Positions 40,980 through 60,959 of a stretch of 64,000 bases of DNA are shown here, one piece after another. A model generated the notes under the pieces. That model saw nothing but the letters and a program-made list of their open reading frames with translations. It did no database searches and had not been told where the DNA came from. Position numbers and translations under genes: made by a program. Each line of letters starts with the position of its first letter. Position 1 is the first letter of the stretch. The DNA is from Chitinophagales bacterium (GTDB lineage Bacteria > Bacteroidota > Bacteroidia > Chitinophagales > CAIOSU01). The stretch lies in contig JBBDNB010000023.1 in NCBI GenBank assembly GCA_040877935.1, positions 1 to 64,000 on the forward strand, read 5' to 3'.

Positions 40980-41055
40980 TTTTCCAATATACAAAAAAAA
41001 GACCCAAAACAAAATATGTGTTTTAGGCCTTTTAAAAATTTAAATATTAGTATTA

Positions 41056-41562
41056 CTAATCTATTTTTTGAACTTTAATAGATTCTTTATGAGTACCTCT
41101 TCTATCACTCAGGTGAATGATGTACTGCCCTGATGAATAAGTGCTAAGATCAATTTCATGTAAGCTTCTGCCCAACACTGTTAGCTGGTCTGCACTTCCG
41201 GTATTAAGTTTTCGGCCACTGATATCGAACAATTCTATTAAAATCTCCAACTCTTTATCAGAACTCAATTCCAATATTACTTTTTGGGAAGTAGGGTTTG
41301 GGTAGGCAGTGATATTCATATTCTGCACAACGCGCTCAATACCCACATTGAGTTCTTCCGGTGCGGGCTGTTGAAAGCCCTGGGTTAAAATGATATCGGC
41401 TCCTGTAAGCGTTGATGTTGCCACTTCGCCCACTGTTGAGGAAAGTGAGAGACCGCCCGTTTCAGCATATGCACCATAGCTTGAAACTACTTGTCTTTCA
41501 ATGCTTTGCCCATAGGCTAAAGTGATTCCAAGACATAGAATTGTTGTGAATATCCGTTTCAT
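41056..41562 (-). CDS. Small T9SS-sorted partner of S74 protein (copy 1)
   Basis: This 168-residue secreted protein has a signal peptide (MKRIFTTILCLGITLAYGQ), a short domain (about 20-70) with SYGAYAETGGLSLSSTVGEV and DIILTQGFQQP, and a T9SS type A C-terminal domain (about 85-168: AYPNPTSQKVILEL, LFDISGRKL, STYSSGQYIIHLS). The same architecture appears at 42779 (168 residues). Each small gene follows an S74 gene with a two-base gap, so the two products are made in step. It may anchor or display the S74 partner, which has no sorting domain of its own; that is an inference. Confidence 0.85.
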   Translation of the reverse strand: MKRIFTTILCLGITLAYGQSIERQVVSSYGAYAETGGLSLSSTVGEVATSTLTGADIILTQGFQQPAPEELNVGIERVVQNMNITAYPNPTSQKVILELSSDKELEILIELFDISGRKLNTGSADQLTVLGRSLHEIDLSTYSSGQYIIHLSDRRGTHKESIKVQKID

Positions 41563-41564
41563 GA

Positions 41565-42569
41565 CTATTTGTTTTTAAGGTTTTCAAATTCTGCTTTCAA
41601 TGCATCAAGTTCATCCTGTAGCAAATCAATTGCTTTTTGTTGCTGGCCAATCACTTCCTGCTGCTCCTGAATGGCTTTAATGGCCAATACACCAAATCCG
41701 GAATAGTTCATGTGATAAATAAATTCACTTTGATTTTCATCGGTATAATCTTTTGAAACAATTTCGGGAAAATAGCGCTCCACATCCTGAGCGATAAAAC
41801 CGATATGTAGCTTTTGATTTTCATCTTCTTTGTAGTTATATGTTTTGGGGTTGAGGTGTAGTACTTTGTTCAAAACAGAAGATATAGGCTGGATATTAGC
41901 TTTTAGATTTCTGTCTGATGTAGCACTGTATGCCCCAGTAGTTGCATTAAAATTACCGCGTTCTACCCCGCCATTTATTAAAGCCAGCCTGCTATTTCCA
42001 ACATCACTAAAACCGTATATCTGCCAGTCAGAAGTTGAAAACTCATGGTCGATGGTCAGTCCGCCACCGGCAGCAAAACCTTCACTGTATTTGAGGTGCA
42101 ATTTGGTTTGAGGTGTATCAGTGCCGACTCCCACTCTTCCTTCTGTATAAAACACATTGGCTGTGTCAGATTTCCAGGGACCGGAGGCATACATGGCGTA
42201 AGGTACACTGAGCAATTCATTGCTGCCCAAATTTTCAAATCCATTCCCAGCATCTACTTCTACCTGCAATTCTTTGCTACCTCTGCTCCAGTCTATAGCT
42301 GAAAAACCGAGTGTGTCTATAGTACCGATTTTTAGATTGATTAAGCCGAACGCATTGCTTATTACGCCCGAATGTGTTTCTTCAAACTCAATATTGCCAT
42401 TACTTAAAATTGTAAAATGCAAATCCACAGTATCGTTGGCCAGAATTTCAACACTGTCGCTTCGCAATACAGCCTGGTAATTGAATGCCTGAGGTGCTTG
42501 AGCCATAGCTGATTGCACTATTAGGCAAGTCATTACTAATAGAATAAAAATGCTGTTTTGAATATTCAT
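41565..42569 (-). CDS. S74 (intramolecular chaperone) surface protein, copy 1
   Basis: This 334-residue protein has a signal peptide (about 1-23), an N-terminal domain shared with its paralogues (about 24-130, AFNYQAVLRSDS ... LLSVPYAMYASG), a short beta-rich stalk, and a C-terminal peptidase S74 domain (about 215-300). The self-cleavage site is Ser218-Asp219 and Lys223 (S+5) completes the dyad, as in endosialidase tail-fibre chaperones. GFIAQDVERYFPE is the conserved core. The protein ends in a coiled coil (about 303-334). The S74 domain drives trimer folding and then cleaves itself off. Two bases separate it from its small T9SS partner downstream. Confidence 0.87.
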   Translation of the reverse strand: MNIQNSIFILLVMTCLIVQSAMAQAPQAFNYQAVLRSDSVEILANDTVDLHFTILSNGNIEFEETHSGVISNAFGLINLKIGTIDTLGFSAIDWSRGSKELQVEVDAGNGFENLGSNELLSVPYAMYASGPWKSDTANVFYTEGRVGVGTDTPQTKLHLKYSEGFAAGGGLTIDHEFSTSDWQIYGFSDVGNSRLALINGGVERGNFNATTGAYSATSDRNLKANIQPISSVLNKVLHLNPKTYNYKEDENQKLHIGFIAQDVERYFPEIVSKDYTDENQSEFIYHMNYSGFGVLAIKAIQEQQEVIGQQQKAIDLLQDELDALKAEFENLKNK

Positions 42570-42660
42570 GCTTAATAGGGTTTATAGATAAGAATACGAA
42601 TAGTAATGATTTTTTGAAGAATTATACAAATTAAGCCATAAAAAACATTTTTCAAAACAC

Positions 42661-42697
42661 AAAAAACCCCGAAACACAAAAAAGTATTCCGGGGTTA
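42661..42697 (-). terminator. Terminator after the second S74/T9SS module
   Basis: AACCCCG (42665-42671) pairs with CGGGGTT (42690-42696). On the minus strand a T-run (plus-strand A-run at 42661-42666) follows, so it ends the transcript coming from 42779. The rest of the gap (42570-42778) shows nothing else. Confidence 0.8.
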
Positions 42698-42778
42698 AAC
42701 TTGTTTTATGCAATATTTTTCTTATTTCATAGAAATCATTGCATACTGCAGATTAAAGAATTCTGGGCTCAGCTCATA

Positions 42779-43285
42779 CTATTCTATCTTTTGCACCTTG
42801 ATAGATTCCGCAGTGCCTTTTTCTTTCTCGCTCAAATGGATAATGTAATGTCCAGAAGCATAGGCACTTAAATCAATTTCATGAACACTATGGCCAAGAA
42901 CGGTTACCTGATCGGCATTTCCATGTCTCAACTGTTTTCCATTGATATCGAACAAGCGCACAAATATTTCCATTTCCTTGTTTGAGTTCAATTCCAGAAT
43001 GACTTTCTGTGTAGTAGGATTTGGAAATGCACTTATGTTCAAATCATTGATTACGCGTTCAATTCCAACGGTGTCATCTATATCGCTGGGCTGTTGGAAG
43101 CCCTGGGTCAGAATAATATCGGCTTGCTCTAATGTAGCGGTAGCAACTTCTCCCACAGTGGAAGAAAGAGCCAAAGCACCGCTTTCTTCATAAGAGCCGT
43201 ATGGCGATACCACTTGCCTTTCGATGCTTTGACCGAAAAGCAGTGTTACGCTAAAACTTAGAATAATACTGTATATCGATTTCAT
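42779..43285 (-). CDS. Small T9SS-sorted partner of S74 protein (copy 2)
   Basis: This 168-residue protein is a close paralogue of the one at 41056 and has the same length and layout: signal peptide (about 1-19), domain with SYGSYEESGALALSSTVGEV-like text (here SPYGSYEESGALAL) and DIILTQGFQQPS, and a T9SS type A C-terminal domain (AFPNPTTQKVILEL, LFDINGKQL, SAYASGHYIIHLS). It starts two bases after the stop of the S74 gene at 43288. It is the last gene before a terminator at 42661. Confidence 0.85.
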   Translation of the reverse strand: MKSIYSIILSFSVTLLFGQSIERQVVSPYGSYEESGALALSSTVGEVATATLEQADIILTQGFQQPSDIDDTVGIERVINDLNISAFPNPTTQKVILELNSNKEMEIFVRLFDINGKQLRHGNADQVTVLGHSVHEIDLSAYASGHYIIHLSEKEKGTAESIKVQKIE

Positions 43286-43287
43286 AA

Positions 43288-44637
43288 TTACTTGTTTTTG
43301 AGGTTTTGAATTTCCGCTTTCATAGCGTTTAGTTCACTTTCTAAATCCTGTATAGTTGCTTGTTGTTCTTGCATACCTTTAATCAATAAAGGAACAAATT
43401 CACCATAGCTGATACCCAGTACTTCTACATCCTGTTTTTCAACTTTACCGGTTTCTTGATTGTAATCCCAGTCATACTGGTTCACAGCTTCAGGATATAC
43501 TTTCAGTACTTCCTGAGCAATGAGGCCATTTTTGACTTCATCTCCTGGTGAATCCTTGTAAATGTAACTTACAGGGTTTAATTGCATGATATCATTCAAT
43601 CCGTAGTTCAATGCATTGATATTCTTTTTAACATTTTTGTCGGAAAAGGTTACAAAATCGGTTGCTACAACTTCATCCCATCTATCATCCATATTGTTAT
43701 TTCCAATGTCAAAATTGTTGACACCGGATTCTTCAACAATATCAGCACCAACTGCTAAACTATAGGAACCTGTTCCTTTTCTAAATAGTGTTGGTCCGTC
43801 AGCGAATTCTACAGAATCTAAAATGGCCCATCCATTTACGTCTAATCTGCCAGCTGGTGAAGATGTCCCGATACCAACATTGCCAGTTCCATTTTCAATG
43901 GTAAACACATCGGTACCATCATCCCGAATGGTCAAGTTTTCAGATGAAGACATATATAAATACCAGTCTTCATTGGTTCCTTGAGATGAGGTCATTCGAA
44001 TTCCATCATTTAAGCCAGTTCCAGTTGCCAGAATATGGAGAGGAGCATTAGGAGCGCTGGTACCAATACCAACATTTCCACTGTCGTAATAAATATCAGA
44101 ACCACTTGTGCTCCAATTGCTTCCGCCACCAGCACCGGCCGCAGGCACCCAATCTGTCCCATCAAATTGTAAGAAATCTCCATTGCTTGCTCCTGATGCA
44201 TCTACATCATCAAGGTCGTTAAGCTCCATGCTCATTGCAGGGGCTGTTCCGGCTCGCAATGCATAAGGCACACTTAAGAGTTCGCTGGTGCCCAGATTTT
44301 TAAAGCCATCACCATCTAGGGCATCTACTTCTACCTGCAATTCTTTACTGCCAGTACTCCAATCGATGGCGGAAAAGTCACCGGGGTTTTGCGTACCAAT
44401 TTGTAGATTGATCATGCCAAAAGCATTGGTAGTGACACCCGAATGGGTTTCGTCAAATTCTGCTGTACCGCTGCTTAATACGGTAAAGCGTACATCCACT
44501 GTTTCATTGGCTTGGATATCTCCGTTGCCATCCCGCAGCACACCTTGATAGTTCATGGCATCGGGAACTTGTGCCATAGCCATGGGCAGGCTTAAAATAA
44601 TAATTAAAAAATTCAGAATAATCTTTTGAGTTTTCAT
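43288..44637 (-). CDS. S74 (intramolecular chaperone) surface protein, copy 2
   Basis: This protein of about 449 residues starts at 44637 (MKTQKIILNFLIIILSLP, a signal peptide); an in-frame ATG at 44679 adds 14 residues that spoil the signal. The shared N-terminal domain (about 22-130) is followed by a stalk with two NVGIGTS-type repeats and a C-terminal S74 domain with Ser332-Asp333 and Lys337 (S+5), core NGLIAQEVLKVYPEA, then a coiled coil (about 410-449). Repeats of the NVGIGT type occur in phage tail-fibre stalks. It is coupled to its T9SS partner by a two-base gap. Confidence 0.87.
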   Translation of the reverse strand: MKTQKIILNFLIIILSLPMAMAQVPDAMNYQGVLRDGNGDIQANETVDVRFTVLSSGTAEFDETHSGVTTNAFGMINLQIGTQNPGDFSAIDWSTGSKELQVEVDALDGDGFKNLGTSELLSVPYALRAGTAPAMSMELNDLDDVDASGASNGDFLQFDGTDWVPAAGAGGGSNWSTSGSDIYYDSGNVGIGTSAPNAPLHILATGTGLNDGIRMTSSQGTNEDWYLYMSSSENLTIRDDGTDVFTIENGTGNVGIGTSSPAGRLDVNGWAILDSVEFADGPTLFRKGTGSYSLAVGADIVEESGVNNFDIGNNNMDDRWDEVVATDFVTFSDKNVKKNINALNYGLNDIMQLNPVSYIYKDSPGDEVKNGLIAQEVLKVYPEAVNQYDWDYNQETGKVEKQDVEVLGISYGEFVPLLIKGMQEQQATIQDLESELNAMKAEIQNLKNK

Positions 44638-44713
44638 AGTTGTATTGTTTGTTTTTAGGTTAAAAAATTCTATTAACAAATCTTAATTTAAAAAAATATT
44701 GCAGACTTCAAAA

Positions 44714-46897
44714 TTATCTGCGCTTTTTTAATTGATTTACTTCGTCAATTAAGCTGTTTACCTGTGCTTTTAACTCATTTATAGACTCATCTTGTTTTTG
44801 AATAATTTCTTGTTGTTCTTGGATACCTGAAACCAGAACTGGAATGAATTCTGAATAGGAAACAGTAAGCAGATTTTCAGTTTCACCCCCATCATTGCCG
44901 TTAACTGTCACCACCTCTGGTAGTACATCCATGAGTTCTTGAGCGATAAAACCATAATATTTTTTTCCTGGCTCACTTTTATACTCATAGGTTTTTGCTT
45001 CTATACGAGTAAGCTTTTCTAAGCTGTTCTTATTTTCAAGTGCAGCGATATTCATTTTCAACCTCTCATCAGAACTTGCACTGTAATTCCCTGAAGTATT
45101 GTCAAAATTCCCTCTTAAACCACCATTGAAGTACAAACTTAGGTCACTTGTGCTCTGGGAAGAGTATAAAACCCATTGTGCATTATTGGATTCATTTTCT
45201 ATTGCCAAACCTCCTCCACTTGCACCTGTAAATTGATTATGAGTTAAATGAAGGTTATAATCAATGTCGCTTGTTCCTATACCAACACGTCCATCCTCAT
45301 CAATGCGCATGCGTTCATGTAAGCTATTTGAGCCCGAGAAGTTTACTCCTCTTGTAAGAAAGACTAGGTTGCCACTTGTACTTCCAGAGGTGTGGTTCAT
45401 CTGTTGGCCGACAATCTTACCTGTAGAAGATACAGCGTTATTGCTTATTTTAGTTGCAAATGTTAAGCTTGTATAGGTTCCATCTGTTGTATTATTGTTC
45501 TGTATTACTAGGTTAACATCTGGATTATCAAAAGGACTTCCTGCTATATTCGTGCTAGATTCATTGCCTCTAAGGTGAAGTTTGGTGCTTGCAATATTAC
45601 CAATTCCCACGTAACCACCATCATAATAAATATCAGAACCACTTTCTTCCCATTGTAAAATGTTACTGGGGGCAGTCCATTCTATACTGGAACCATTGCT
45701 GGTCAAGATATCATCACTACTGCCACTGACTCCACCAGTCAATAAATTTCCAGTGATATCAATGTCATCAGTTTCAAGACCGTCTTCAATTAATACGCCA
45801 TCACCTCCGTGAAAATATCCACTGCGACCACTTCCACTATAGACCCAACCTTCAATGGCATCGCCTCCATTATCCGTTTGTGCTAAAACAGCAGTTTCAT
45901 CTTCACTACTTGCAAATATTCCCTGATTACCAAGAGCTGCATCTATATATAGACCTGTTGGTGTTGTAGGCGTAGCAAACGAACTTTGACCTACGCCAAT
46001 TCCAATTGCAGAACCATTTGTATTGGTTACCTCTACTGTCATTTCACTTGAAGAGGAGGCCGATTGAACAGATATAGCTGTTTGGCTTCCTCCATCTACT
46101 TCAAGAACATAGTTGGGAGAGGTAGTGCCAATGCCGACATTACCAGTGTTGTAATAAATATCAGAACCACTTTCTTGCCAATTACTAAAACCAGATGCAC
46201 CGATAGTGGTCCAGTTGCTGCCGTCCCACTGCAAAACATCTCCATTGGTGGCGCCCATTTGATCCAATTTATTGGCTGTAATGGCCGCATCAGCTATGTT
46301 TGAAGTTTCAATTGCGTTGTTTCCGATATCGGGATCGGGATAAGTACCTGTTAAATCCCCACCGGCTGGCCCTGAAGGCGTTCCGCCACCTGCTCCGGAA
46401 GCTGGTGCCCAATTAGAACCATTCCATTGTAAATAATCTCCGCTTGTAGCTACTGAACTGCTAACATTGTTTAATTCCTCTAATGAAATATCAGCAGAAG
46501 CTGCTGTGCCAGCTCTTAATGCATAAGGTACACTCACTAAATTTCTGCTGCCTAAGTTTTCAAAGCCATTTCCGGCATCTACTTCTACCTGCAATTCCTT
46601 GTTGCCGATACTCCAGTCGATGGTAGAAAAATCACTTGTGTTTTGTGTACCAATTTGCAAATTGATCAATCCAAAAGCATTGGTGCTTACGCCTGAATGT
46701 GTTTCGGTAAATTCAGTAGTTCCGCTGCTTAAAATGCTAAAGCGCACATCTACCGTTTCATTGGCTTGAATGTCGCCATTGTCATCCCGCAGCACGCCCT
46801 GATAGTTCATGGCTTCGGGAACTTGTGCAAAAGAAGGGTTGAAAAATAAAAATAAGCAAGCAGTAATAACTGCATAAATAATATCACGCGTTTTCAT
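44714..46897 (-). CDS. S74 (intramolecular chaperone) surface protein, long copy 3
   Basis: This protein of about 727 residues begins at 46897 (MKTRDIIYAVITACLFLFF, signal peptide). The shared N-terminal domain (about 22-125) leads to a long stalk with GGDLTGTYPDPDIG, several SGSDIYY.G.VGIG repeats, and a middle region. The C-terminal S74 domain has Ser609-Asp610 and Lys614 (S+5), core YGFIAQELMDVLPEV, then a coiled coil. Unlike the other two copies it is not followed by a small T9SS partner: the next gene 76 bases on is the copy-2 S74 gene, so it may use that module's partner. A -7 box lies 57 bases upstream of its ATG. Confidence 0.87.
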   Translation of the reverse strand: MKTRDIIYAVITACLFLFFNPSFAQVPEAMNYQGVLRDDNGDIQANETVDVRFSILSSGTTEFTETHSGVSTNAFGLINLQIGTQNTSDFSTIDWSIGNKELQVEVDAGNGFENLGSRNLVSVPYALRAGTAASADISLEELNNVSSSVATSGDYLQWNGSNWAPASGAGGGTPSGPAGGDLTGTYPDPDIGNNAIETSNIADAAITANKLDQMGATNGDVLQWDGSNWTTIGASGFSNWQESGSDIYYNTGNVGIGTTSPNYVLEVDGGSQTAISVQSASSSSEMTVEVTNTNGSAIGIGVGQSSFATPTTPTGLYIDAALGNQGIFASSEDETAVLAQTDNGGDAIEGWVYSGSGRSGYFHGGDGVLIEDGLETDDIDITGNLLTGGVSGSSDDILTSNGSSIEWTAPSNILQWEESGSDIYYDGGYVGIGNIASTKLHLRGNESSTNIAGSPFDNPDVNLVIQNNNTTDGTYTSLTFATKISNNAVSSTGKIVGQQMNHTSGSTSGNLVFLTRGVNFSGSNSLHERMRIDEDGRVGIGTSDIDYNLHLTHNQFTGASGGGLAIENESNNAQWVLYSSQSTSDLSLYFNGGLRGNFDNTSGNYSASSDERLKMNIAALENKNSLEKLTRIEAKTYEYKSEPGKKYYGFIAQELMDVLPEVVTVNGNDGGETENLLTVSYSEFIPVLVSGIQEQQEIIQKQDESINELKAQVNSLIDEVNQLKKRR

Positions 46898-48952: not shown

Positions 48953-49567
48953 TTAAGATTTCACATCCTTAAAGACCTCTTTCAGCTCAACTTTCAAATC
49001 AGGGAATATCACAGATTGAAGTGTTTCTGATTCTATTCGAGGTCGGTAGATTTTGTATTTTCCGTCTTCCAGTACATTGAGGATTACTGAGCGGTTTTCT
49101 GGCGAAACGATCCAATATTCACGCACGCCATATTCCTCATACAACTCAAACTTATCTTTTTGATCCCTGCCCTGTGTAGAAGGTGAAAGAATTTCCACTA
49201 CTAGATCAGGAGCACCTACACAGCCGAAATCTTTTAATTTACTTTCATCGCATACCACGCAAAGGTCTGGCTCTACAATATTCTTTGTTTTCTTGTAATG
49301 TTGCCCGGGCTTTACCAGGTAAACATCAACAGGTGCAAAGAATAGTTCGCAAGGAGTATTTGTAAAAAAAACTTCTAAGTTCATCAAAAATTTCTTTGCT
49401 ATTCTTTGATGATTAATTGTAGGTGCAGGACTCATCTTGAAAATCTTGCCGCGAATTAATTCTGCAAATTCCTCCATTTTCCATTGCAAATAATCTGCAG
49501 CGGTATAGGTGCCACTCAGGTCGGGTTCGTTGACGGTGTCGGGTGTGTGTTCTTTATATTCTTTCAT
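48953..49567 (-). CDS. Uma2 family endonuclease-like protein (array copy 1)
   Basis: This 204-residue protein belongs to Uma2 (DUF820), a PD-(D/E)XK-like family with restriction-endonuclease fold. Motifs: YTAADYLQWKMEEFAELIRG (N-terminus), IVEPDLCVV, and PDLVVEILSPSTQGRDQKDK with the ELYEEYGVREYWIVSPE strand. The first Asp, the Glu of VVEIL and the following Lys fit the catalytic pattern. Copies 1 and 3 of this four-gene array share their 3' ends; copies 2 and 4 form the other type. Uma2 proteins are abundant in cyanobacteria and some Bacteroidota; their role is unclear. Copies lie two to six bases apart. Confidence 0.85.
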   Translation of the reverse strand: MKEYKEHTPDTVNEPDLSGTYTAADYLQWKMEEFAELIRGKIFKMSPAPTINHQRIAKKFLMNLEVFFTNTPCELFFAPVDVYLVKPGQHYKKTKNIVEPDLCVVCDESKLKDFGCVGAPDLVVEILSPSTQGRDQKDKFELYEEYGVREYWIVSPENRSVILNVLEDGKYKIYRPRIESETLQSVIFPDLKVELKEVFKDVKS

Positions 49568-49569
49568 GC

Positions 49570-50187
49570 CTATTCAAACATTACATTTTTGAAAACCTCT
49601 TTCAATTCAACTTTCAATTCAGGAAAAATAACGGATTGAAGTGTTTCGGGCTCTGTGCAGGGGCGTAAGGGTCTGTATTTTCCATTATCTAGCACGCTCA
49701 GGATTACCGAGCGGTTTTCTGGCGAAACGATCCAATACTCCCTTACGCCATACTCCTCGTAGAGTTCAAATTTATCCTTTTGATCCCTGTTACGGGTCGA
49801 GGGAGAAAGGATTTCCACTATAAGATCGGGCGCCCCCACGCAGCCAATCTTTCTGATTTTTTGTTCATTGCATATTACACAGAAATCAGGTTCAACAATG
49901 TTTTTGGACTTTTTGTAATCTTGATTGGGTTTTACCAAATAGACATCAAAGGGGGCAGAAAAAAACCTACAATCTTTTTTTTCAAAATAATTACCCATTC
50001 GTAAAGTCAGTTTTGAAGAAACTTCCTGATGATCACTGGAAGGTGCAGGGCTCATCTTAAAAATATTACCTCGGATCAGCTCCGCAAATTCCTCCATTTT
50101 CCATTGCAGGTAATCCGCAGCAGTGTAAGTACCGCTCAGGTCGGGTTCGTTGACGGTGTCGGGCGTATGTTCTTTATATTCTTTCAT
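49570..50187 (-). CDS. Uma2 family endonuclease-like protein (array copy 2)
   Basis: This 205-residue protein shares its first 48 residues with copy 1 almost exactly (SGTYTAADYLQWKMEEFAEL), then differs in residues about 49-75, and ends KVELKEVFKNVMFE like copy 4. The motifs IVEPDFCVI and PDLIVEILSPSTRNRDQKDK keep the catalytic residues. Two bases separate it from copy 1. The alternating ends (types A-B-A-B along the array) indicate that a two-gene unit was duplicated. Confidence 0.85.
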   Translation of the reverse strand: MKEYKEHTPDTVNEPDLSGTYTAADYLQWKMEEFAELIRGNIFKMSPAPSSDHQEVSSKLTLRMGNYFEKKDCRFFSAPFDVYLVKPNQDYKKSKNIVEPDFCVICNEQKIRKIGCVGAPDLIVEILSPSTRNRDQKDKFELYEEYGVREYWIVSPENRSVILSVLDNGKYRPLRPCTEPETLQSVIFPELKVELKEVFKNVMFE

Positions 50188-50193
50188 ACTGAG

Positions 50194-50817
50194 TTACTTA
50201 TATTTCACATCCTTAAAAACCTCTTTCAGCTCAACTTTCAAATCAGGGAATATCACAGATTGAAGTGTTTCTGATTCTATTCGCGGCCGTAAGGTTTTGT
50301 ATTTTCCATCTTCCAATACATTGAGGATCACCGAACGGTTTTCTGGCGAAACGATCCAGTATTCACGCACGCCATATTCCTCATACAACTCAAATTTATC
50401 TTTTTGGTCCCTGCCCTGTGTAGAAGGGGAAAGAATTTCAACTACCAGATCGGGAGCGCCTACACAACCGAAATCTTTCAGTTTGCTATCATCACATACC
50501 ACGCAAAGATCTGGCTCAACTATGTTCTTTGTTTTCTTGTAATGTTGCTCTGTTTTCACAAGATACACATCGAAAGGAGGATGAAACAATTCACACTTTT
50601 TAGAAAAATAGGGCAAGAATACTCTCAAAATCTCCCTTGAAATATTTTGGTGATACCTTGAAGGAGCAGGACTCATCTTAAAAATCTTACCGCGGATCAG
50701 CTCTGCAAATTCCTCCATTTTCCATTGCAGGTAATCAGCAGCGGTATAGGTGCCACTCAGGTCGGGTTCGTTTACCGTATCGGGTCTGTTGTCTTTATGT
50801 GCTTTATAATTTTTCAT
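50194..50817 (-). CDS. Uma2 family endonuclease-like protein (array copy 3)
   Basis: This 207-residue protein starts MKNYKAHKDNRPDTV, slightly longer than copies 1 and 2, and from about residue 80 onward is almost the same as copy 1 (GAPDLVVEILSPSTQGRDQK). Its middle (about 50-75, SRYHQNISREILRVFLPYFS) is unlike the others. Catalytic residues are intact. It lies six bases from copy 2 and two bases from copy 4. Confidence 0.85.
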   Translation of the reverse strand: MKNYKAHKDNRPDTVNEPDLSGTYTAADYLQWKMEEFAELIRGKIFKMSPAPSRYHQNISREILRVFLPYFSKKCELFHPPFDVYLVKTEQHYKKTKNIVEPDLCVVCDDSKLKDFGCVGAPDLVVEILSPSTQGRDQKDKFELYEEYGVREYWIVSPENRSVILNVLEDGKYKTLRPRIESETLQSVIFPDLKVELKEVFKDVKYK

Positions 50818-50819
50818 AC

Positions 50820-51434
50820 CTATTCAAACATTACATTTTTGAAAACCTCTTTCAATTCAACTTTCAATTCAGGAAAAATAACGGATTGAAGTGTTTCGGA
50901 TTCTACTCGGGGTCGTAAGGTTTTGTACTTTCCATTTTCCAAAACATTTAAAATTACAGAACGTGCTGTGATTGATACAATCCAATATTCTCTAACTCCA
51001 TATTCCTCATAGAGTTCAAACTTGTCCTTTTGATCCTTAATATTAGTGTGAGGGGATAAAATTTCAATTATCAAATCGGGACTGCCAACGCAACCGAAGT
51101 TTTTTATTTTATCAGGATTGCACGTTATTGTAAGATCTGGTTCAACTATGTTTTGGGTTTCTTTGTAATCCTGTCCAGCTTTCACAAGATATATGTCTAA
51201 AGGACCGTGAAAGAATTCATATTTATTAATTTTAGCAAAATCATACAGATTAAGCAACAACTGGCCTAATACAGCTTGATGGTCGGTTGAAGGATTAGGC
51301 TTCATTTTATATACCTTTCCACGGATTAACTCGACCATATACCCCAAATCCCATTGCAGGTAATCCGCAGCGGTATAGGGGCCGCTCAGGTCGGGTTCGT
51401 TTACAGTATCGGGGCTGTGTTCTTTATCGGACAT
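50820..51434 (-). CDS. Uma2 family endonuclease-like protein (array copy 4)
   Basis: This 204-residue protein is the first gene of the array and the most diverged copy (YLQWDLGYMVELIRGKVYKM, TDHQAVLGQLLLNLYDFAKI). It still carries the core IVEPDLTIT and PDLIIEILSPHTNIKDQKDK and the 3' end KVELKEVFKNVMFE of copy 2. It opens MSDKEHSPDTVNEPDLSGPY. A hairpin terminator upstream (51463-51497) separates it from the acyl-CoA dehydrogenase gene, so the array needs its own promoter in the short gap 51435-51462, or reads through. Confidence 0.85.
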   Translation of the reverse strand: MSDKEHSPDTVNEPDLSGPYTAADYLQWDLGYMVELIRGKVYKMKPNPSTDHQAVLGQLLLNLYDFAKINKYEFFHGPLDIYLVKAGQDYKETQNIVEPDLTITCNPDKIKNFGCVGSPDLIIEILSPHTNIKDQKDKFELYEEYGVREYWIVSITARSVILNVLENGKYKTLRPRVESETLQSVIFPELKVELKEVFKNVMFE

Positions 51435-51519: not shown

Positions 51520-53319
51520 TTACAAACTGTAAGCATTGTCGTCAATCAATTTTGCGGCAATTTCCCTGCGCAAGGCTTTGGTATTTACAAATTCATATTT
51601 GGTGAATCTTTTGATACCCATCAACATCATCCGCAATTCATCGCCTTCTGCAAATGCTGTCAAAGCGTGTTTACCTGAAAGATTAATGCGCTCCAGTGCA
51701 TCGCTGAAATAAACTTTAACAGCAGCAATCTGAGCAGAAACGGCTTCTTCTCCTTTGAGATTTGCCAATTTCTCAGTGCGCAACATGGCAGATTCGCAAG
51801 CATACAATTCTGTCAGCATATCGGCAATGTTCATCACTACTTCCTGCTCGTGCTTCATTTTTTGTTGCAGTTTCTGGAATGCAGCTCCGGCTGTCATCAA
51901 AATTGCTTTTCGAACATTCTCCAAAGCTTTTTTCTCAGCAGCAAAAAGTCCACTGTCATCATCTCCACCGAAATCTGGCACTGACATCAATTCTTTTTGC
52001 ACAGCCATAGCAGGTGTCATAATATCCAGTTTTCCGTTCATGGCCCTACGAACGAGCATGTCAACGGTCAACATTCTGTTGATTTCGTTGGTACCTTCAA
52101 AAATACGATTGATACGCGCATCGCGGTAAGCCCTTGCTACAGGAGCTTCTTCTGAAAAGCCCATTCCGCCATAAATCTGAAGTGCTTCATCCACTACATA
52201 ATCCAAAGTCTCAGAGCCGTAGAATTTAAGCATGGCACATTCAATAGCATATTCCTCGGCAGCTCCAAGAATTGAGTCTTCGTAGCTTTTTCCTTTTGCC
52301 AACAATTGTTCTTCTTTCTGCTGAATCAAATCACTGGTTCTATAGGTAATGGAATCCGTAACGTAAATTTTAATGGCCATTTCTGCCAATTTGTGCTTAA
52401 TGGCGCCAAAATTGGAAATGGATTTGCCAAATTGCTCGCGCTCATTGCTGTAGTTAACAGCTACATCGAAAGCTTTTTTAGAACCACCCAATACACCGGC
52501 ACACAATTTAAAGCGGCCAATATTCAGGATGTTAAAGGCAATTTTATGTCCTTTTCCAATTTCTCCCAAAACATTTTCCTTGGGCACTTTTACATTGTTG
52601 AAGAAAATCTGTCGGGTTGAAGATCCTTTGATCCCCATTTTATCCTCTTCTGCTCCTCTTGAAACACCTTCATAATCAGCATGAACAATAAAACCGGTGA
52701 ACTTCTCGCCATCAATTTTGGCAAAAACCACAAATACATCTGCAAATCCACCATTGGTGATCCACATTTTTTGTCCGTTCATTACATAATGCTTGCCATC
52801 TTCTGACAATACAGCTTTGGTTTTGGCTGCCAATGCATCCGATCCTGAACCTGGCTCGGTCAAGCAATAAGCCGCTTTCAATTCGCCAGTGGCCAATTTT
52901 GGAAGATATTTTTCTTTTTGCTCTTTGTTTCCAAAATACAAAATGGGTAGAGTACCGATTCCAATATGTGCCCCCAATGAAACCGAGAACGAATGGGCTT
53001 TACCAAATTCCTCAATCAACACGGAATTGGAATTGAAATCGATGCCCATACCACCGTATTCTTCAGGTAGGGCAGTGCTCAATAAGCCCAATTCTGCTGC
53101 TTTATCCAGCAATGAAATCGTAAGGCCTTCTTCTTGTTTGTCAATTCTATCGAGATTGGGTAGGATTTCGCTGTTTACAAAATCTTTCACGGTTTGCCCG
53201 ATCATTTGTTGCTCTTCGTTGAGGTCTTCCCTTATAAAGACATCCTCTGCCTTGGAAGGACGAATCAAGAATTCCCCTCCTTTAAGCAATTGGCTTTTTT
53301 CTGTAGCTACTTCGCTCAT
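51520..53319 (-). CDS. Acyl-CoA dehydrogenase (FadE-like), copy 2
   Basis: This 599-residue flavoenzyme oxidises acyl-CoA to trans-2-enoyl-CoA, step one of beta-oxidation. It has the FAD motifs YCLTEPGSGSDALA (about 150-163) and WITNGGFAD, and the catalytic Glu in RIFEGTNEINRML (about 410-422). The extra C-terminal helical domain (about 430-599) places it with VLCAD-type enzymes, so it likely handles long-chain substrates. It is highly similar along its whole length to the 598-residue copy at 53485. The copies are separated by a GTCAGAC palindrome. Confidence 0.93.
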   Translation of the reverse strand: MSEVATEKSQLLKGGEFLIRPSKAEDVFIREDLNEEQQMIGQTVKDFVNSEILPNLDRIDKQEEGLTISLLDKAAELGLLSTALPEEYGGMGIDFNSNSVLIEEFGKAHSFSVSLGAHIGIGTLPILYFGNKEQKEKYLPKLATGELKAAYCLTEPGSGSDALAAKTKAVLSEDGKHYVMNGQKMWITNGGFADVFVVFAKIDGEKFTGFIVHADYEGVSRGAEEDKMGIKGSSTRQIFFNNVKVPKENVLGEIGKGHKIAFNILNIGRFKLCAGVLGGSKKAFDVAVNYSNEREQFGKSISNFGAIKHKLAEMAIKIYVTDSITYRTSDLIQQKEEQLLAKGKSYEDSILGAAEEYAIECAMLKFYGSETLDYVVDEALQIYGGMGFSEEAPVARAYRDARINRIFEGTNEINRMLTVDMLVRRAMNGKLDIMTPAMAVQKELMSVPDFGGDDDSGLFAAEKKALENVRKAILMTAGAAFQKLQQKMKHEQEVVMNIADMLTELYACESAMLRTEKLANLKGEEAVSAQIAAVKVYFSDALERINLSGKHALTAFAEGDELRMMLMGIKRFTKYEFVNTKALRREIAAKLIDDNAYSL

Positions 53320-53425
53320 GTTTTATTTTTTCTTTTTGGTTAAAAAATCTCTCATTATGTCCCGATGCGCGATCGGTATTTTTTCAACTAGTGTGGATTC
53401 AAACCTGTTTTGACAGTTAAACCCA

Positions 53426-53472
53426 AACGGTCAGACGGCCTTTTGCAGCTATTTAGTAGCCGTCAGACCGTT
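53426..53472. repeat. GTCAGAC palindromic element, short form (copy 3)
   Basis: Arms AACGGTCAGACGGC (53426-53439) and GCCGTCAGACCGTT (53459-53472) pair with the same single A-A mismatch as the other copies. The loop contains TGCAGCTATTTA, as in the copy at 20758. It lies between the two acyl-CoA dehydrogenase genes, 106 bases upstream of copy 2 and 12 bases after the stop of copy 1, so it could end the upstream transcript. Confidence 0.75.
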
Positions 53473-53484
53473 ATTTGTAACTAA

Positions 53485-55281
53485 CTAAAATGCGTATTTG
53501 TTTGCGTCAATCAATTTTGCCGCGACTCTTCTTCTGGCAGCAATGGTATTGAAAGGCTCAATTTTGGTAAATCTTTTCAATCCCATCAACATCATGCGTA
53601 GTTCATCGCCTTCGGCAAATCCAACAATGGCATGTTTTCCAGATATATTCATTTGCTCCAATGCATCTGATACATAGGTTTTGGTCATGTCCACATAAAT
53701 GGCACAATCCTCTACACCTCTTGAAGCAATCAATTTTTCAGTCCTAAGAATGGCAGATTCAGCCGTGAAGATTTGCATCAAAACATCCGAAGTGTTCATC
53801 AGGATTTCCTGTTGCTTATCCAGCTTGTTCATGAATTTTTGTACAGCAGCACCGGCCACCATCAAAAATGCTTTTTTGGCATTTTTCAATGCTTTGCGCT
53901 CATTGGCAAATACACTGTCATCATCCTCTCCGCCAAAATCTGGCACTGACATCAATTCTTTTTGTACGGCCATTGCGGGAGACATCAAGTCTAATTCGCC
54001 TTTCATGGCTTTTTTCACCAACATGCCAACGGACAAAAGTCGGTTGATTTCGTTGGTTCCCTCAAATATTCTGTTGATCCTGGAATCACGGTAGGCACGA
54101 GCAGCAGGTGCTTCTTCTGAAAAGCCCATTCCGCCATATACCTGAACTGTTTCATCCACAACATAATCCAATGCTTCAGAGCCGAGCACTTTCAACATCG
54201 CACATTCAATACTGTATTCTTCGGCAGCTATCAACTTGGCCTCAACAGGATCTTTCCCATCTTCTACCAAATTTTCGATCATATCATTGATCAAACCTGA
54301 AGTGCGGTAAGTAGCAGATTCCACTGCATAAATTTTAATGGCCATTTCTGCCAATTTGTGCTGAATGGCACCAAAACTTGAAATAGCTGTGCCAAACTGC
54401 TCTCTTTCATTGGAATAGTTAATGGCCTTGGTAGCAGCAGCTTTTGCACCGCCCAATACCATTGCACACAATTTATAACGGCCAATATTCAATACGTTAA
54501 ACGCAATTTTATGTCCTTTGCCAATTTCTCCCAATACATTATCAGCAGGAACTTCCACGCCTTCAAAAAACACCTGGCGGGTAGAAGAACCCTTGATACC
54601 CATTTTGTCTTCCTCGGCACCGAGCTTGATATTTTCAGCATCGGCATCTACAATAAAACCTGTGAATTTTTCTCCATCAATTTTTGCAAATACTATAAAA
54701 ACATCTGCAAAGCCACTATTGGTGATCCACATTTTATTTCCCGTGATGGTATAATGTTTTCCATCGTCAGAAAGTATAGCTTTGGTTTTGGCAGCCAATG
54801 CATCAGACCCTGAACCTGGCTCGGTCAAACAGTAAGCAGCTTTTTTTACACCTGAAGCCAAATCCGGCAAATATTTTTGCTTTTGCTCTTCTGTTCCAAA
54901 ATATAAAATGGGCAAGGTGCCAATTCCAGTATGGGCAGCCACGGCTACACCAAAAGAATGACTTTTTCCAATTTCCTCGGCCAATACGGAATCGGTATTG
55001 AAATCTACTCCAAGACCACCGTATTCTTCTGGAATTCCTGCTCCGAGCAATCCGAGTTCCCCGGCTTCATTCAAAAGACTAACGACTTTATCGTGATCGC
55101 CTTTGTCAATTTCAGGAACGAAAGGCCAAACTTTTTTCTCTACAAAATCGCTGGCCGTTTGTCCAAACATTTGTTGTTCTTCCGTAAGGTCCTCGCGAAT
55201 GAAAATTGAGTTTGCTTCTGTTTCGGCAATGACAAATTCACCGCCTTTTAGTACTTTTTTCTTTTCTGCTACAGCACTCAT
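53485..55281 (-). CDS. Acyl-CoA dehydrogenase (FadE-like), copy 1
   Basis: This 598-residue enzyme is a close paralogue of the one at 51520: YCLTEPGSGSDALAAKTKAI, WITNSGFADVFIVFAKID, and the catalytic Glu in RIFEGTNEINRLL. It has the same extended C-terminal domain. Both copies are complete with intact active sites, so two chain-length or condition-specific enzymes are likely. It lies downstream of the thiolase gene but is separated from it by a terminator and a palindromic repeat, so it has its own promoter or receives read-through. Confidence 0.93.
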   Translation of the reverse strand: MSAVAEKKKVLKGGEFVIAETEANSIFIREDLTEEQQMFGQTASDFVEKKVWPFVPEIDKGDHDKVVSLLNEAGELGLLGAGIPEEYGGLGVDFNTDSVLAEEIGKSHSFGVAVAAHTGIGTLPILYFGTEEQKQKYLPDLASGVKKAAYCLTEPGSGSDALAAKTKAILSDDGKHYTITGNKMWITNSGFADVFIVFAKIDGEKFTGFIVDADAENIKLGAEEDKMGIKGSSTRQVFFEGVEVPADNVLGEIGKGHKIAFNVLNIGRYKLCAMVLGGAKAAATKAINYSNEREQFGTAISSFGAIQHKLAEMAIKIYAVESATYRTSGLINDMIENLVEDGKDPVEAKLIAAEEYSIECAMLKVLGSEALDYVVDETVQVYGGMGFSEEAPAARAYRDSRINRIFEGTNEINRLLSVGMLVKKAMKGELDLMSPAMAVQKELMSVPDFGGEDDDSVFANERKALKNAKKAFLMVAGAAVQKFMNKLDKQQEILMNTSDVLMQIFTAESAILRTEKLIASRGVEDCAIYVDMTKTYVSDALEQMNISGKHAIVGFAEGDELRMMLMGLKRFTKIEPFNTIAARRRVAAKLIDANKYAF

Positions 55282-55357
55282 TTTTATTTGTTTATTGGGT
55301 TATTTAGATATTTGTTTGTTGAATTAAGGTTTTACTAATCTTGAGCCTTCTTTGAAA

Positions 55358-55438
55358 AGCGGTCAGACGACCTGCTTATTGAGTTTCCAAAGTGTGAATA
55401 ATTTGACAGATACCTATTTGAAAATTCGTCAGACCGCT
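55358..55438. repeat. GTCAGAC palindromic element, long form (copy 4)
   Basis: Arms AGCGGTCAGACGA (55358-55370) and TCGTCAGACCGCT (55426-55438) pair with the shared single A-A mismatch. The interior is 55 bases and does not match the short copies. Arm ends and total length (81 bases) agree with the copy at 10287 (82 bases). Confidence 0.72.
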
Positions 55439-55447
55439 GTGGTTCAT

Positions 55448-55484
55448 AAAAGGGCAGGTTCCGATAGAACCTGCCCTTTTTATT
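55448..55484 (-). terminator. Terminator after the thiolase gene
   Basis: AAAAGGGCAGGTT pairs with AACCTGCCCTTTT over a seven-base loop, flanked by A and T runs. It lies five bases after the thiolase stop. Confidence 0.9.
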
Positions 55485-55488
55485 ATAA

Positions 55489-56664
55489 TTAACTCAATCG
55501 CTCGTAAATTCCAGCAATTCCCTGGCCACCACCAATACAGGCTGTAACCATTCCGTATTTCTGGTTTCTTCTTCTCATTTCATTAATCAACTGAACTGTG
55601 AGTTTTGTTCCTGAACATCCCAGTGGGTGTCCAAGAGCAATGGCTCCTCCATTTACATTGATGATATCGGGATTCAATCCAGCTTCACGAATTACAGCCA
55701 AAGACTGTGCAGCAAAAGCTTCATTTAGCTCAATTTGCTCAATGTCGTTCAATTTCATTCCAGCTTGTTTCAAAGCTTTTGGAATGGCTTTTACCGGGCC
55801 CATTCCCATAATGCTTGGATCTAATCCAGCAGTAGCGGTAGTTACCATTCTTGCAACTGGCTCTAGGTTCAATTCTTTCACCATTTTTTCTGACATCACC
55901 AATACAAAAGAGGCTCCATCAGAAGTTTGGGAAGAGTTACCGGCAGTTACCGATCCGCCCAAAGAGAATGCAGGGCGCAATTTACCCAATACCTCTTTTG
56001 AAGTATCCGCTCTTGGCCCTTCATCGGTATCCACTGTATATTTTCTTGTTTTGCGCTTGTTGCCTTCCAAATAAGTTTCCTCAACTTCTACCGGAACGAT
56101 TTCGTCTTTGAATTTCCCTTCCTTAATAGCAGCAATTGCTTTTTGATGAGAATTGTAGGCGAAATCATCCTGATCTTCTCTTGAAACTTTATATTCCTGG
56201 GAAATTTTCTCAGCCGTATGGCCCATTCCCAAATAATATTCGGGGTAATCTTTGGCTATTTCATAATTGGGTACGGTTTTGTATCCTACGGTTGGCACCA
56301 AAGACATGGATTCTGTTCCCCCGGCAATGATACATTCCGCCATTCCAGATTGGATTTTAGCAGTTGCCATAGCAATGGTTTCTACGCCCGAACCACAGTA
56401 GCGATTCACGGTAACACCTCCTACGCCAAGCGGAAGTGCTCTTACAGCAACCCAACGGGCCATCTGCAAACCTTGCTCCGCTTCGGGAACGGCATTTCCA
56501 ACAATTAAATCATCAATTCTTTCAGGATCCAACTCTGGAACTTGAGCAGTAAGATGCTTGATAACATCTACGGCCAAATCAACCGGAGTAACAAATCTGA
56601 AGCCGCCTTTTTTGGCTTTGCCAACGGCTGTTCTGTATCCTTTTACTATATATGCATGTGACAT
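55489..56664 (-). CDS. fadA: Acetyl-CoA C-acyltransferase (3-ketoacyl-CoA thiolase)
   Basis: This 391-residue thiolase performs the last beta-oxidation step, splitting 3-ketoacyl-CoA with CoA into acetyl-CoA and a shortened acyl-CoA. The nucleophile Cys90 (VNRYCGSGVET), His346 (LGHPLGCSG) and Cys376 (TACIGGGQG) are all present. It lies 26 bases after the fadN-type gene on the same strand and is surely cotranscribed with it; a strong hairpin follows its stop. Confidence 0.94.
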   Translation of the reverse strand: MSHAYIVKGYRTAVGKAKKGGFRFVTPVDLAVDVIKHLTAQVPELDPERIDDLIVGNAVPEAEQGLQMARWVAVRALPLGVGGVTVNRYCGSGVETIAMATAKIQSGMAECIIAGGTESMSLVPTVGYKTVPNYEIAKDYPEYYLGMGHTAEKISQEYKVSREDQDDFAYNSHQKAIAAIKEGKFKDEIVPVEVEETYLEGNKRKTRKYTVDTDEGPRADTSKEVLGKLRPAFSLGGSVTAGNSSQTSDGASFVLVMSEKMVKELNLEPVARMVTTATAGLDPSIMGMGPVKAIPKALKQAGMKLNDIEQIELNEAFAAQSLAVIREAGLNPDIINVNGGAIALGHPLGCSGTKLTVQLINEMRRRNQKYGMVTACIGGGQGIAGIYERLS

Positions 56665-56690
56665 GATTCTATCTTTTTTAAGTTTTTAAA

Positions 56691-59117
56691 TTAGTTTCTC
56701 AATGGTTTGCCTGTTTTCAAAATACTTTGAACACGCTCCAAAGTCTTTTTCTCACCCAGCAATGACAAGAAAGCTTCCCTTTCCAAATCAAGCAAGTAAG
56801 TTTCTGAAACTTTGGTAGCTGCTGACAAATCTCCACCACTCATTACAAAAGCAATTTTATTTGCAATCTTCATATCGTGGGCAGATGCGTATTTTCCAAA
56901 ATGGAAACCATAAGAGCCGGAGTAAAGTGGGCCTAAAGCCGTTTTACCATGAACTTTAATATCCGTTCTTTCAATCGGACGGGTATAGCCCAATTCAAAT
57001 AGGCGGATCACCTCATTTTTGGCTTCTTTGATCACTCGGTCGCTGTTCACAACAATCAAATCCTCTTTTCTAAGGATGTCCATGTTTTTGGCCTCATAAG
57101 CTGAAGTTGCCACTTTGGCCGTAGCGATATTGATGAATTTTTCTTGCAAGCGATTCAACTCTACATCGCCACTTCTATATGTATCAGAAGCGCGCAAAGT
57201 AAATTCTTTGGTACCACCTCCGGCAGGAATTAGTCCCACACCAACTTCTACCAAACCAATATAGGTTTCAGCAGAAGCAACCACTTTATCTGAATGCATG
57301 GTCAGCTCGCAACCGCCACCCAAAGTCATTCCATGAGGACAAGCCACTACCGGTATATCTGAGTAACGTACACGCATAATGGTATTCTGGAACCTGCGAA
57401 TGGCGAATTCCAATTCATCGAATTCCTGCTCAATGGCAAACATGAAAATCATGGCCAAATTCGCTCCAGCAGAAAAGTTAGAGCCATCATTACCCAATAC
57501 AAGGCCTTTCCAACCTTCATTTTCTGCAATATCTATGGTTTTGTTGATGCCTTCCAAAACTTCACCTCCCAGTGAATTCATTTTGGTATGGAATTCCAGG
57601 TTCAGCACGCCATCGCCCAAATCGTGCAATGTAGCTCCCGAGTTGCTCCAAACTGGTTTTTGACCTCTGAGGTTGTCCAATTTGATAAATGCCTCTTGGC
57701 CGGGAATGGCTTTGTAAGATTTAGATTCCTGATCGTAATATTTTTTCACACCATCCACTACTTTATAGAAAGAAGTGTTTCCGCTTTCCAGCATTTCCTC
57801 TACCCATTTGGCAGGTGCTTTACCGGCTTCTTTCATGGCTTTTACGGTGCGTTCAACGCCCAATACATCCCAGATTTCGTAAGGGCCTAATTCCCATCCA
57901 AAACCAGCACGCAATGCATCATCTACTTTGTAAAGCTCATCTGCAATTTCAGGCACACGGTTAGATGCGTAAGCGAAAAGCATTTGCGAAAGCTTGTTCA
58001 TAAATTCTGCCGCTTTGTCTTTTCCGGCATGTAGCGCTTTCAATCTTTCTTTCAATCCGTCCAAAGCCTTTGCTGTTTCTAGCGTTGCAAATTTTGCTCT
58101 TTGTTTGGGACGGTATTCCAATGTATTTAAATCAAGCGTAAGAATTTCTTTCTTGCCATCTGCATCTTTGGTTTTCTTGTAAAATCCTTGTCCGGATTTG
58201 TCGCCCAACCATTTGTTCTCAACCAATTTGTCAACGAAATCAGGAATTTTAAACAAATCCCTTGATTCATCTTCCGTGCAATCGTTGTAGGCATTGTTGG
58301 CCACTTTTACCAAAGTATCGATACCAACTACATCGGCAGTTCTGAAAGTAGCCGATTTCGGACGACCTGAAACTGGACCGGTCAATGCATCCACTTCCTC
58401 AATGGTCATGTCCATTTCTTTCATTACATGGAAAATGGCCATAATGGAGAAAACACCAATTCTGTTGGCAATAAAAGCGGGAGTGTCTTTACAAAGCACT
58501 GTGGTTTTGCCCAAATGCTTGCTTCCGTATTCCATAGAGAAATCCACAACTTCGGGAGCCGTTTCTGGCGTAGGAATGATTTCCAATAATTTCAAATAGC
58601 GTGGCGGATTGAAGAAGTGCCAGCCCAAAAAGTGTGTTTTGAAATCATCGCTTCTGTCTTCCAACATAGAATTGATTGGAATTCCAGAAGTATTGGAAGC
58701 TACGATAGAGCCTTTTTTTCTGTATTGATCAACCTGTGTAAAAACCTTCTTTTTAATATCCAGATTTTCAACCACTGCTTCCAGGATCAAATCTGCTTCT
58801 CCGATTTTCTCGAAATCATCCTCAAAGTTTCCAGTTTCTATTCTGCTGGCGAATGCCTTGTCATAAATAGCAGAGGGATTAGATTTTAAGGTAGAAGCCA
58901 ATGCTCCATCCACAATGCTGTTTCTTGCTTTTTTGTCCGATTTTTTATCCTCTGGCAAATCTCTTGGCACGATATCCAAAAGCAGTGCTTCCACACCGAT
59001 GTTTGCAAAATGACAGGCAATTCTTGAGCCCATCACGCCCGAACCAAGCACTGCAACTTTTCTAAGTTTGCGCGCTGAGGCTTTTAGGACTTTTGTTTTT
59101 TCTGTTACTGTTTCCAT
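56691..59117 (-). CDS. Bifunctional 3-hydroxyacyl-CoA dehydrogenase / enoyl-CoA hydratase (FadN-type)
   Basis: This 808-residue enzyme joins an N-terminal 3-hydroxyacyl-CoA dehydrogenase (NAD motif VAVLGSGVMGSRIACHFA, 21-38; C-terminal dehydrogenase helices about 205-400) to a C-terminal enoyl-CoA hydratase (about 490-720, with SNFSAGANLAMIFM and PHGMTLGGGCELTMHSD oxyanion segments). This order is the reverse of E. coli FadB and is that of Bacillus FadN. It performs the two middle steps of beta-oxidation. Its promoter region holds a 13-base site also found before the TetR gene, so it is probably repressed by that regulator. Confidence 0.92.
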   Translation of the reverse strand: METVTEKTKVLKASARKLRKVAVLGSGVMGSRIACHFANIGVEALLLDIVPRDLPEDKKSDKKARNSIVDGALASTLKSNPSAIYDKAFASRIETGNFEDDFEKIGEADLILEAVVENLDIKKKVFTQVDQYRKKGSIVASNTSGIPINSMLEDRSDDFKTHFLGWHFFNPPRYLKLLEIIPTPETAPEVVDFSMEYGSKHLGKTTVLCKDTPAFIANRIGVFSIMAIFHVMKEMDMTIEEVDALTGPVSGRPKSATFRTADVVGIDTLVKVANNAYNDCTEDESRDLFKIPDFVDKLVENKWLGDKSGQGFYKKTKDADGKKEILTLDLNTLEYRPKQRAKFATLETAKALDGLKERLKALHAGKDKAAEFMNKLSQMLFAYASNRVPEIADELYKVDDALRAGFGWELGPYEIWDVLGVERTVKAMKEAGKAPAKWVEEMLESGNTSFYKVVDGVKKYYDQESKSYKAIPGQEAFIKLDNLRGQKPVWSNSGATLHDLGDGVLNLEFHTKMNSLGGEVLEGINKTIDIAENEGWKGLVLGNDGSNFSAGANLAMIFMFAIEQEFDELEFAIRRFQNTIMRVRYSDIPVVACPHGMTLGGGCELTMHSDKVVASAETYIGLVEVGVGLIPAGGGTKEFTLRASDTYRSGDVELNRLQEKFINIATAKVATSAYEAKNMDILRKEDLIVVNSDRVIKEAKNEVIRLFELGYTRPIERTDIKVHGKTALGPLYSGSYGFHFGKYASAHDMKIANKIAFVMSGGDLSAATKVSETYLLDLEREAFLSLLGEKKTLERVQSILKTGKPLRN

Positions 59118-59150
59118 ATTTTGAATCGATTTTTAATTTTTAAAGGGTCT

Positions 59151-59191
59151 CTAATTTACACATAATAATGCTTTATACCAAACGATTGTTT
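59151..59191 (-). promoter_or_regulatory. fadN promoter with TetR-type operator
   Basis: A near-consensus -7 box (TAAATTAG on the minus strand, 59151-59158) lies 33 bases before the fadN ATG. Twenty bases further upstream, the -33 TTTG overlaps the sequence CAAACGATTGTTT (59179-59191), which has CAAAC/GTTT(G) arms around GATT. The identical 13-mer and -7 box occur in front of the tetR gene. Confidence 0.65.
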
Positions 59192-59198
59192 TATAACG

Positions 59199-59756: not shown

Positions 59757-59777
59757 ATATTCTTTCTGCTTTAAAGG

Positions 59778-59819
59778 CTAATTTACTAAAATTCTCGTTA
59801 TCAAACGATTGTTTGGTAA
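59778..59819 (-). promoter_or_regulatory. tetR promoter with operator
   Basis: TAAATTAG (minus strand, 59778-59785) is the presumed -7 box. The palindrome TTATCAAAC-GATT-GTTTGGTAA (59798-59819) overlaps the -33 region and contains the same CAAACGATTGTTT as the site before fadN. Confidence 0.65.
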
Positions 59820-59881
59820 AAGTGTTTTGTTTGGCTTAAGGAAATAATGGAAGTGGGATTTGTTTTGAGAGGCTTAGATAT

Positions 59882-60844: not shown

Positions 60845-60907
60845 AGGGAAAATTATTCGCAGATAATAAGCCTTTGTTTGTGATTTTGTTTAGCGCTGAC
60901 TAAAATA

Positions 60908-60944: not shown

Positions 60945-60959
60945 AAATTCGCTAATGAA

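Follow-up and report, generated by a model that had tools for sequence, protein, structure and literature searches.

In the mosaic adhesive trimer (MAT) fibres that Bdellovibrio bacteriovorus makes, a conserved, beta-rich N-terminal domain (N-domain, MAT-N) stands right behind the signal peptide, and the tips are S74, TNF-like, C-type-lectin-like and other domains; S74 self-cleavage was demonstrated for Bd3182 (PMC10769870). The authors of that study note that the element of the cell surface to which the MAT N-domain binds has yet to be identified (PMC10769870). Here we describe a 64,000-nucleotide stretch of the Chitinophagales bacterium contig JBBDNB010000023.1 (the window) that holds three genes for fibres of a MAT-like type and two genes for small companion proteins bearing a sorting domain of the type IX secretion system (T9SS), and we show that such companions go with MAT-N fibre genes across the phylum Bacteroidota.

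As in Bdellovibrio (PMC10769870; NF053851), the fibres have a signal peptide, a predicted beta-rich N-domain, a variable stalk and an exchangeable tip (S74 with an SDxxxK motif, TNF/C1q-like or lectin-like), with several paralogues per genome. Unlike the Bdellovibrio genes, the Bacteroidota fibre genes usually come with a T9SS-sorted companion, and the N-domains of the window score under the curated cut-off of NF053851 and match the first half of that profile. In sequence, in the Ser-Asp motif with Lys at S+5 and in predicted fold, the S74 domains resemble those of phage tail fibres and endosialidase (3GW6) and of MyRF (7DC3); in contrast to phage S74 proteins, however, the window fibres are chromosomal, have a signal peptide and a MAT-type N-domain, and are surrounded by bacterial household genes rather than phage genes. 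The SprB/SprF type B adhesins are likewise a two-gene surface adhesin module in which the second gene settles attachment, and the type B companions reported below also bring PorP/SprF (PMC9143113, PMC12618676). SprB itself bears its own C-terminal sorting domain (CTD), whereas here the fibre is free of a T9SS signal and a second, small protein bears one. Each element, the MAT fibre, the S74 domain and sorting by the T9SS, is already known. In the open-access literature, to which the search was confined, we found no account of MAT-N fibres paired across the phylum with an adaptor family that is sorted by the T9SS, with either type of CTD.

Results

The companion goes with the MAT-type N-domain

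Between signal peptide and CTD, the companions contain about 50 residues that have no Pfam name and end in a conserved ILTQGFQQP; we call this region PARTN. Public loci were fetched by companion sequence alone, using four sequences of the source genome as query. In the resulting 80 loci, 63 of the 83 companion genes directly adjoined a MAT-N or S74 fibre gene, which lay behind the companion in 43 cases, in front of it in 9 and on both sides in 11; companion first and fibre second is the usual order outside the window. We also looked at a class sample in which each family of the class was represented by one genome (40 in all); there, 42 of 54 companion genes were at most 1.5 kb away from a MAT-N domain on the same strand, compared with 0 of 62 controls having a CTD only (Fisher p ~5e-21). 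When the distance was widened to 8 kb, counting the same-strand neighbours listed, the figure rose to 47 of 54. Most companions in the query alignment of the class sample were fibre-linked, a bias towards finding further genes of that kind, whereas the 80-locus set has little bias of this kind because it was obtained with the four source-genome sequences. A preliminary description of the window had staked its reading beforehand on the pairing being conserved in related genomes, and both counts show this conservation.

The same link is seen between genomes. In the class sample PARTN was present in 25 of the 26 genomes that have MAT-N and in none of the 14 that lack it (Fisher p ~6e-10), and at least 10 of these 14 still match the T9SS CTD. 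All 18 companion genes found outside the source genome in a phylum sample were near a MAT-N gene, three apparent exceptions proving to lie beside divergent MAT-N genes. In 6 of the 7 genomes read from one family, a companion with a weaker score immediately precedes the S74-tipped fibre. The 16 genomes that host stand-alone companions all carry MAT-N genes elsewhere, so that no companion was seen in a MAT-N-free genome in the class sample, the phylum sample or these 16 genomes. At the level of genes, the link between PARTN and MAT-N is strong.

The S74 domain does not follow this distribution. In the source genome, S74 genes without MAT-N had a companion in 0 of 11 cases, compared with a companion directly behind in 3 of the 4 S74 genes with MAT-N (p 0.009), and about 7 in 10 of the MAT-N fibres read outside the source genome are without S74. 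The companion goes with the MAT-N domain, not with S74, and it is because of this distribution that we rejected S74 as its partner.

Layout of the window locus

The open reading frame listing gives three fibre genes and two companion genes, all on the minus strand within positions 40997-46897 (Table 1). The gaps between fibre and companion genes are exactly two bases (TAA-TT-ATG and TAG-TC-ATG), and fibre 1 has no companion of its own. A terminator-like hairpin stands after each companion, which suggests two transcription units, one made of fibre 1, fibre 2 and a companion and the other of fibre 3 and a companion. The preliminary description had reported three minus-strand signal-peptide proteins with a common N-domain, variable stalks and an S74 domain in which Ser-Asp and the Lys at S+5 are intact, none of them with a T9SS sorting domain, and two 168-residue proteins that do have one, 2 base pairs behind; reading frames, Pfam matches and motifs confirmed these points. 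It had also taken the repeated two-gene layout as an argument for the pairing. The two pairs are tandem duplicates (their companions are 65% identical to each other), so that the repeated layout does not count as independent support, which comes from other genomes instead.

Table 1. Features of the fibre locus, with positions counted along the window
Feature	Length (residues)	Position	Strand	Description
Fibre 1	727	44714-46897	minus	ATG at 46897; signal peptide, MAT-like N-domain ~46511-46825, long stalk, S74 ~44906-45073 with SDERLK, C-terminal coiled coil; without T9SS signal
Fibre 2	449	43288-44637	minus	signal peptide, MAT-like N-domain ~44251-44571, stalk, S74 ~43483-43644 with SDKNVK; without T9SS signal
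Companion of fibre 2	168	42779-43285	minus	signal peptide, PARTN 43088-43231 (end ILTQGFQQP), T9SS type A CTD 42806-43027; 2 base pairs after fibre 2
Hairpin behind companion of fibre 2		42665-42696	minus	terminator-like, with T tail; consensus scan only
Fibre 3	334	41565-42569	minus	signal peptide, MAT-like N-domain ~42186-42500, short stalk, S74 ~41757-41918 with SDRNLK; without T9SS signal
Companion of fibre 3	168	41056-41562	minus	signal peptide, PARTN 41365-41508, T9SS type A CTD 41089-41304; 2 base pairs after fibre 3
Hairpin behind companion of fibre 3		40997-41033	minus	terminator-like, with T tail; consensus scan only

The fibres share one end and vary at the other

In all three window fibres the signal peptide ends before a conserved Gln and is followed by an N-domain of about 105 residues. 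Identity between the N-domains is 67-82%, against only 35-44% between the S74 parts; one end of the fibre is conserved and the distal end is variable. The N-domains match the NCBIfam profile NF053851 (Bdello_MAT_N) with E 1.5e-10 to 6.7e-9 over profile positions 2-77 of 162, at 36-41 bits and below the curated cut-off of 60, and the profile is also matched by 53 of 54 relatives (best E 4.4e-14). These profile matches indicate that the N-domain of the window fibres is homologous to that of the Bdellovibrio MAT fibres. In an AlphaFold2 model of fibre 3, the N-domain came out as a confident beta-domain and the S74 domain, also confident, carried a long C-terminal helix. Solved structures searched with the MAT-N profile gave chance-level matches only, mostly antibodies, and the structural neighbours of the MAT-N model were common beta-sandwich domains (Z ~7), an uninformative result. 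A candidate lipobox in fibre 1 ('ITAC') was rejected by eye, the hydrophobic stretch continuing to the conserved cleavage site between A and Q that is common to the paralogues. Two loci (L143, 1368-1959; L156, 1407-1998) encode MAT-N proteins of less than 200 residues that have hardly any stalk and yet adjoin a companion gene; these may be remnants, the products of split genes or minimal forms.

Pfam PF13884 (Peptidase_S74) was found in all three window fibres at 51-70 bits (cut-off 22), and the Ser-Asp with Lys at S+5 is intact at residues 609 (fibre 1), 332 (fibre 2) and 218 (fibre 3). The S74 model of fibre 3 matched the MyRF chaperone domain 7dc3 with Z 9.0 (VIA-align) and endosialidase 3gw6 with Z 7.6. 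The window S74 domains have the predicted fold of S74 autoprocessing proteins, with the Ser/Lys dyad. In the MAT family the stalk is a trimeric beta-helix with capping loops; the window stalks contain VGIGxxxP-like motifs that differ from the exact consensus, and the stalk of fibre 3 was modelled at low confidence as a single chain.

The tips are exchanged among members of the MAT-N fibre family, between S74, TNF-like and lectin-like forms, as they are in the MAT family. The C-terminal regions of 93 MAT-N fibres from Bacteroidota comprised S74 (27), collagen (10), Lcl_C (6), C1q (5), Fib_succ_major (2) and YadA_head (2). All three fibres of the window have an S74 tip, and the source genome has in addition one MAT-N fibre ending in C1q and one ending in Lcl_C. 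None of the three window fibres and none of the 93 fibre C-terminal regions carried a T9SS signal.

Other S74 genes of the source genome are arranged differently. Six of them form a cluster (G000:C43:10114-26888; L001, L005, L006, L008, L009, L014); where their starts lie in the fetched loci, the signal peptide leads straight into a QNVGIG-type stalk, with no MAT-N, and companions were not seen. Another S74 protein without a MAT-N match (G000:C4:10531-10722; L011) bears a type A CTD of the T9SS after its S74 domain, which scores 26.4 bits with TIGR04183, just above the cut-off, and falls just below that of Pfam; self-cleavage by S74 would separate the stalk from the sorting signal.

The companion keeps PARTN and exchanges its T9SS address

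Both window companions have a signal peptide, judged by eye, and match PF18962 (Por_Secre_tail) at 40-42 bits (cut-off 27) and TIGR04183 at 32-34 bits (cut-off 23); PF18962 is found in no window fibre. The CTD of a relative has a fold that matches the CTD of mirolase (Z 10.0), and the source genome encodes the T9SS and gliding proteins SprA, PorU and GldJ. By signal peptide, sorting domain and the presence of a T9SS in the genome, the window companions are predicted T9SS type A substrates.

The protein that bears PARTN nearly always has a T9SS address. In the source genome, contigs C9 and C37 encode a variant of PARTN, GQVVYTxNT...GVQQPYEI, also adjoining MAT-N genes. In six distinct PARTN companions a type B CTD replaces the type A one, and some of these proteins are larger and have SprB repeats. 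At three fully read loci the type B companion comes immediately after the fibre gene and before a gene of the PorP/SprF family, whose members carry and anchor T9SS type B proteins (PMC9143113, PMC12618676). What is constant across loci is PARTN beside MAT-N together with some T9SS address, the type of CTD being exchangeable.

Other genes of the window

Elsewhere in the window, three groups of genes were named by eye only. At 48953-51434, on the minus strand, there are four tandem genes of about 205 residues with near-identical N-termini (TVNEPDLSGTYTAADYLQW...), which resemble Uma2-type nuclease-fold proteins. A two-gene unit at 10576-11959, on the plus strand, resembles an AbiE-type toxin-antitoxin system (a 203-residue AbiEi-like regulator and a 259-residue nucleotidyltransferase). 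The minus-strand region 51520-62729 looks like a fatty-acid-degradation cluster, with two tandem acyl-CoA dehydrogenases (~600 residues), a thiolase, a 3-hydroxyacyl-CoA dehydrogenase, a TetR-type regulator and an acyl-CoA synthetase.

Discussion

We consider it probable that the two genes specify a two-part surface fibre, in which a T9SS-delivered adaptor of about 50 residues docks a MAT-type fibre on the cell. The fibre protein would reach the periplasm by its Sec signal peptide and trimerise there under its S74 chaperone, which would probably cut itself off at the Ser-Asp bond. The companion would also enter by Sec, and the T9SS would then take it across the outer membrane by means of its CTD. 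In the case of a type A companion, PorU would remove the CTD and the usual link to lipopolysaccharide would keep the protein at the surface; the type B companions of some relatives would be held there by the PorP/SprF protein. Of a type A companion, little beyond the conserved PARTN would then be left outside the cell, and PARTN would bind the invariant N-domain and dock the fibre with its variable tip outward. The anatomy of the proteins, the homology to the MAT N-domain, the phylum-wide pairing, the fibres free of T9SS signals and the swap of the CTD with PARTN kept are shown here and support this explanation, and from them we infer physical binding, surface location, direction, self-cleavage and adhesion.

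Several observations weigh against docking by the companion. AlphaFold2 was run on a single chain that reads through the stop codon between companion and fibre at L061, where the two are in frame; with 29 paired rows and 105 unpaired ones, this model showed no confident docking and a poorly ordered PARTN (pTM, the predicted template-modelling score, 0.57), with the CTD and the N-domain confident. In a mirror-tree comparison of 82 pairs, distances in MAT-N correlated with those in PARTN at r 0.22 and with those in the CTD at r 0.42; the correlation is above chance and weaker for PARTN than for the CTD, which points to shared ancestry only, with no extra sign of co-evolution. Fusions of PARTN, or of a T9SS signal, with MAT-N were absent from 201 MAT-N frames. 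Some MAT-N genes (L230, L233) have no companion nearby, and some companions stand alone, away from fibre genes. To our knowledge the T9SS is confined to Bacteroidota and their kin, and Bdellovibrio has none. Since Bdellovibrio displays MAT fibres all the same, a T9SS partner is not required for every such fibre. Six of the stand-alone companions (L066, L072, L090, L105, L124, L127) share a conserved neighbourhood, before a gene for a membrane protein of ~593 residues and a gene of ~266 residues.

The companion may also act earlier, as an export ticket and not only as an anchor: PARTN would bind the CTD-less, pre-assembled trimeric fibre in the periplasm, and the CTD of the companion would take the complex through the T9SS translocon. 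We regard such export in trans as rather unlikely; sequence alone cannot separate docking from escort through the T9SS. The absence of a T9SS signal from all 93 fibres and of any fusion in the 201 frames fits it, as do a companion family never seen in a MAT-N-free genome and genes that are adjacent and probably co-transcribed; however, the MAT fibres of Bdellovibrio are surface-exposed without a T9SS, a long trimeric fibre would need to fit through the pore, and the papers searched yielded no earlier case of a T9SS passenger that lacks a CTD. If export in trans were true, one small universal adaptor would serve many fibres whose tips are exchangeable, and the T9SS would be used in a new way.

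We give still less credence to the view that the companion, as a small surface protein expressed together with the fibre, acts beside it, for example as a second surface component or coat, with no direct contact. The lack of predicted docking and of excess co-evolution, and the stand-alone copies in conserved non-fibre neighbourhoods, are what such a protein would lead one to expect, but the companion was never found without MAT-N in the genome, and its adjacency to the fibre gene was kept over families despite reversed gene order and swapped T9SS signal type.

The preliminary description had seen in the locus a two-component fibre system in which S74 proteins are the specific partners of the companion, which anchors the trimer released by self-cleavage. 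It is supported in part, by a conserved pairing, a T9SS address on the companion and SprA, PorU and GldJ in the genome, and the intact S74 domains of all three window fibres, two of them with companions, had spoken for the rest; pairing with S74 is nevertheless largely refuted by the distribution, S74 being present in only 27 of the 93 MAT-N fibres and the S74 genes without MAT-N having no companion in the source genome, and we hold it to be very improbable. Least probable of all is a periplasmic assembly helper whose T9SS signal merely removes it after use, which the small size and tight gene coupling of the companion would allow, but which agrees poorly with larger companions bearing SprB repeats and with type B companions placed between a fibre gene and a PorP/SprF gene, an order that fits surface retention, not disposal.

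On the explanation that we favour, docking of the fibre by a T9SS-delivered adaptor, PARTN, which we saw only where the genome has MAT-N fibres, is a candidate from a different phylum for the surface element that binds the MAT N-domain. It may be that many Bacteroidota genes listed as 'tail fiber domain-containing protein' or as a small 'T9SS type A sorting domain-containing protein' encode the halves of one system. Two questions are made testable in cultivable Bacteroidota, namely by what means MAT-type fibres are held on the cell and by what route proteins free of a T9SS signal reach its surface.

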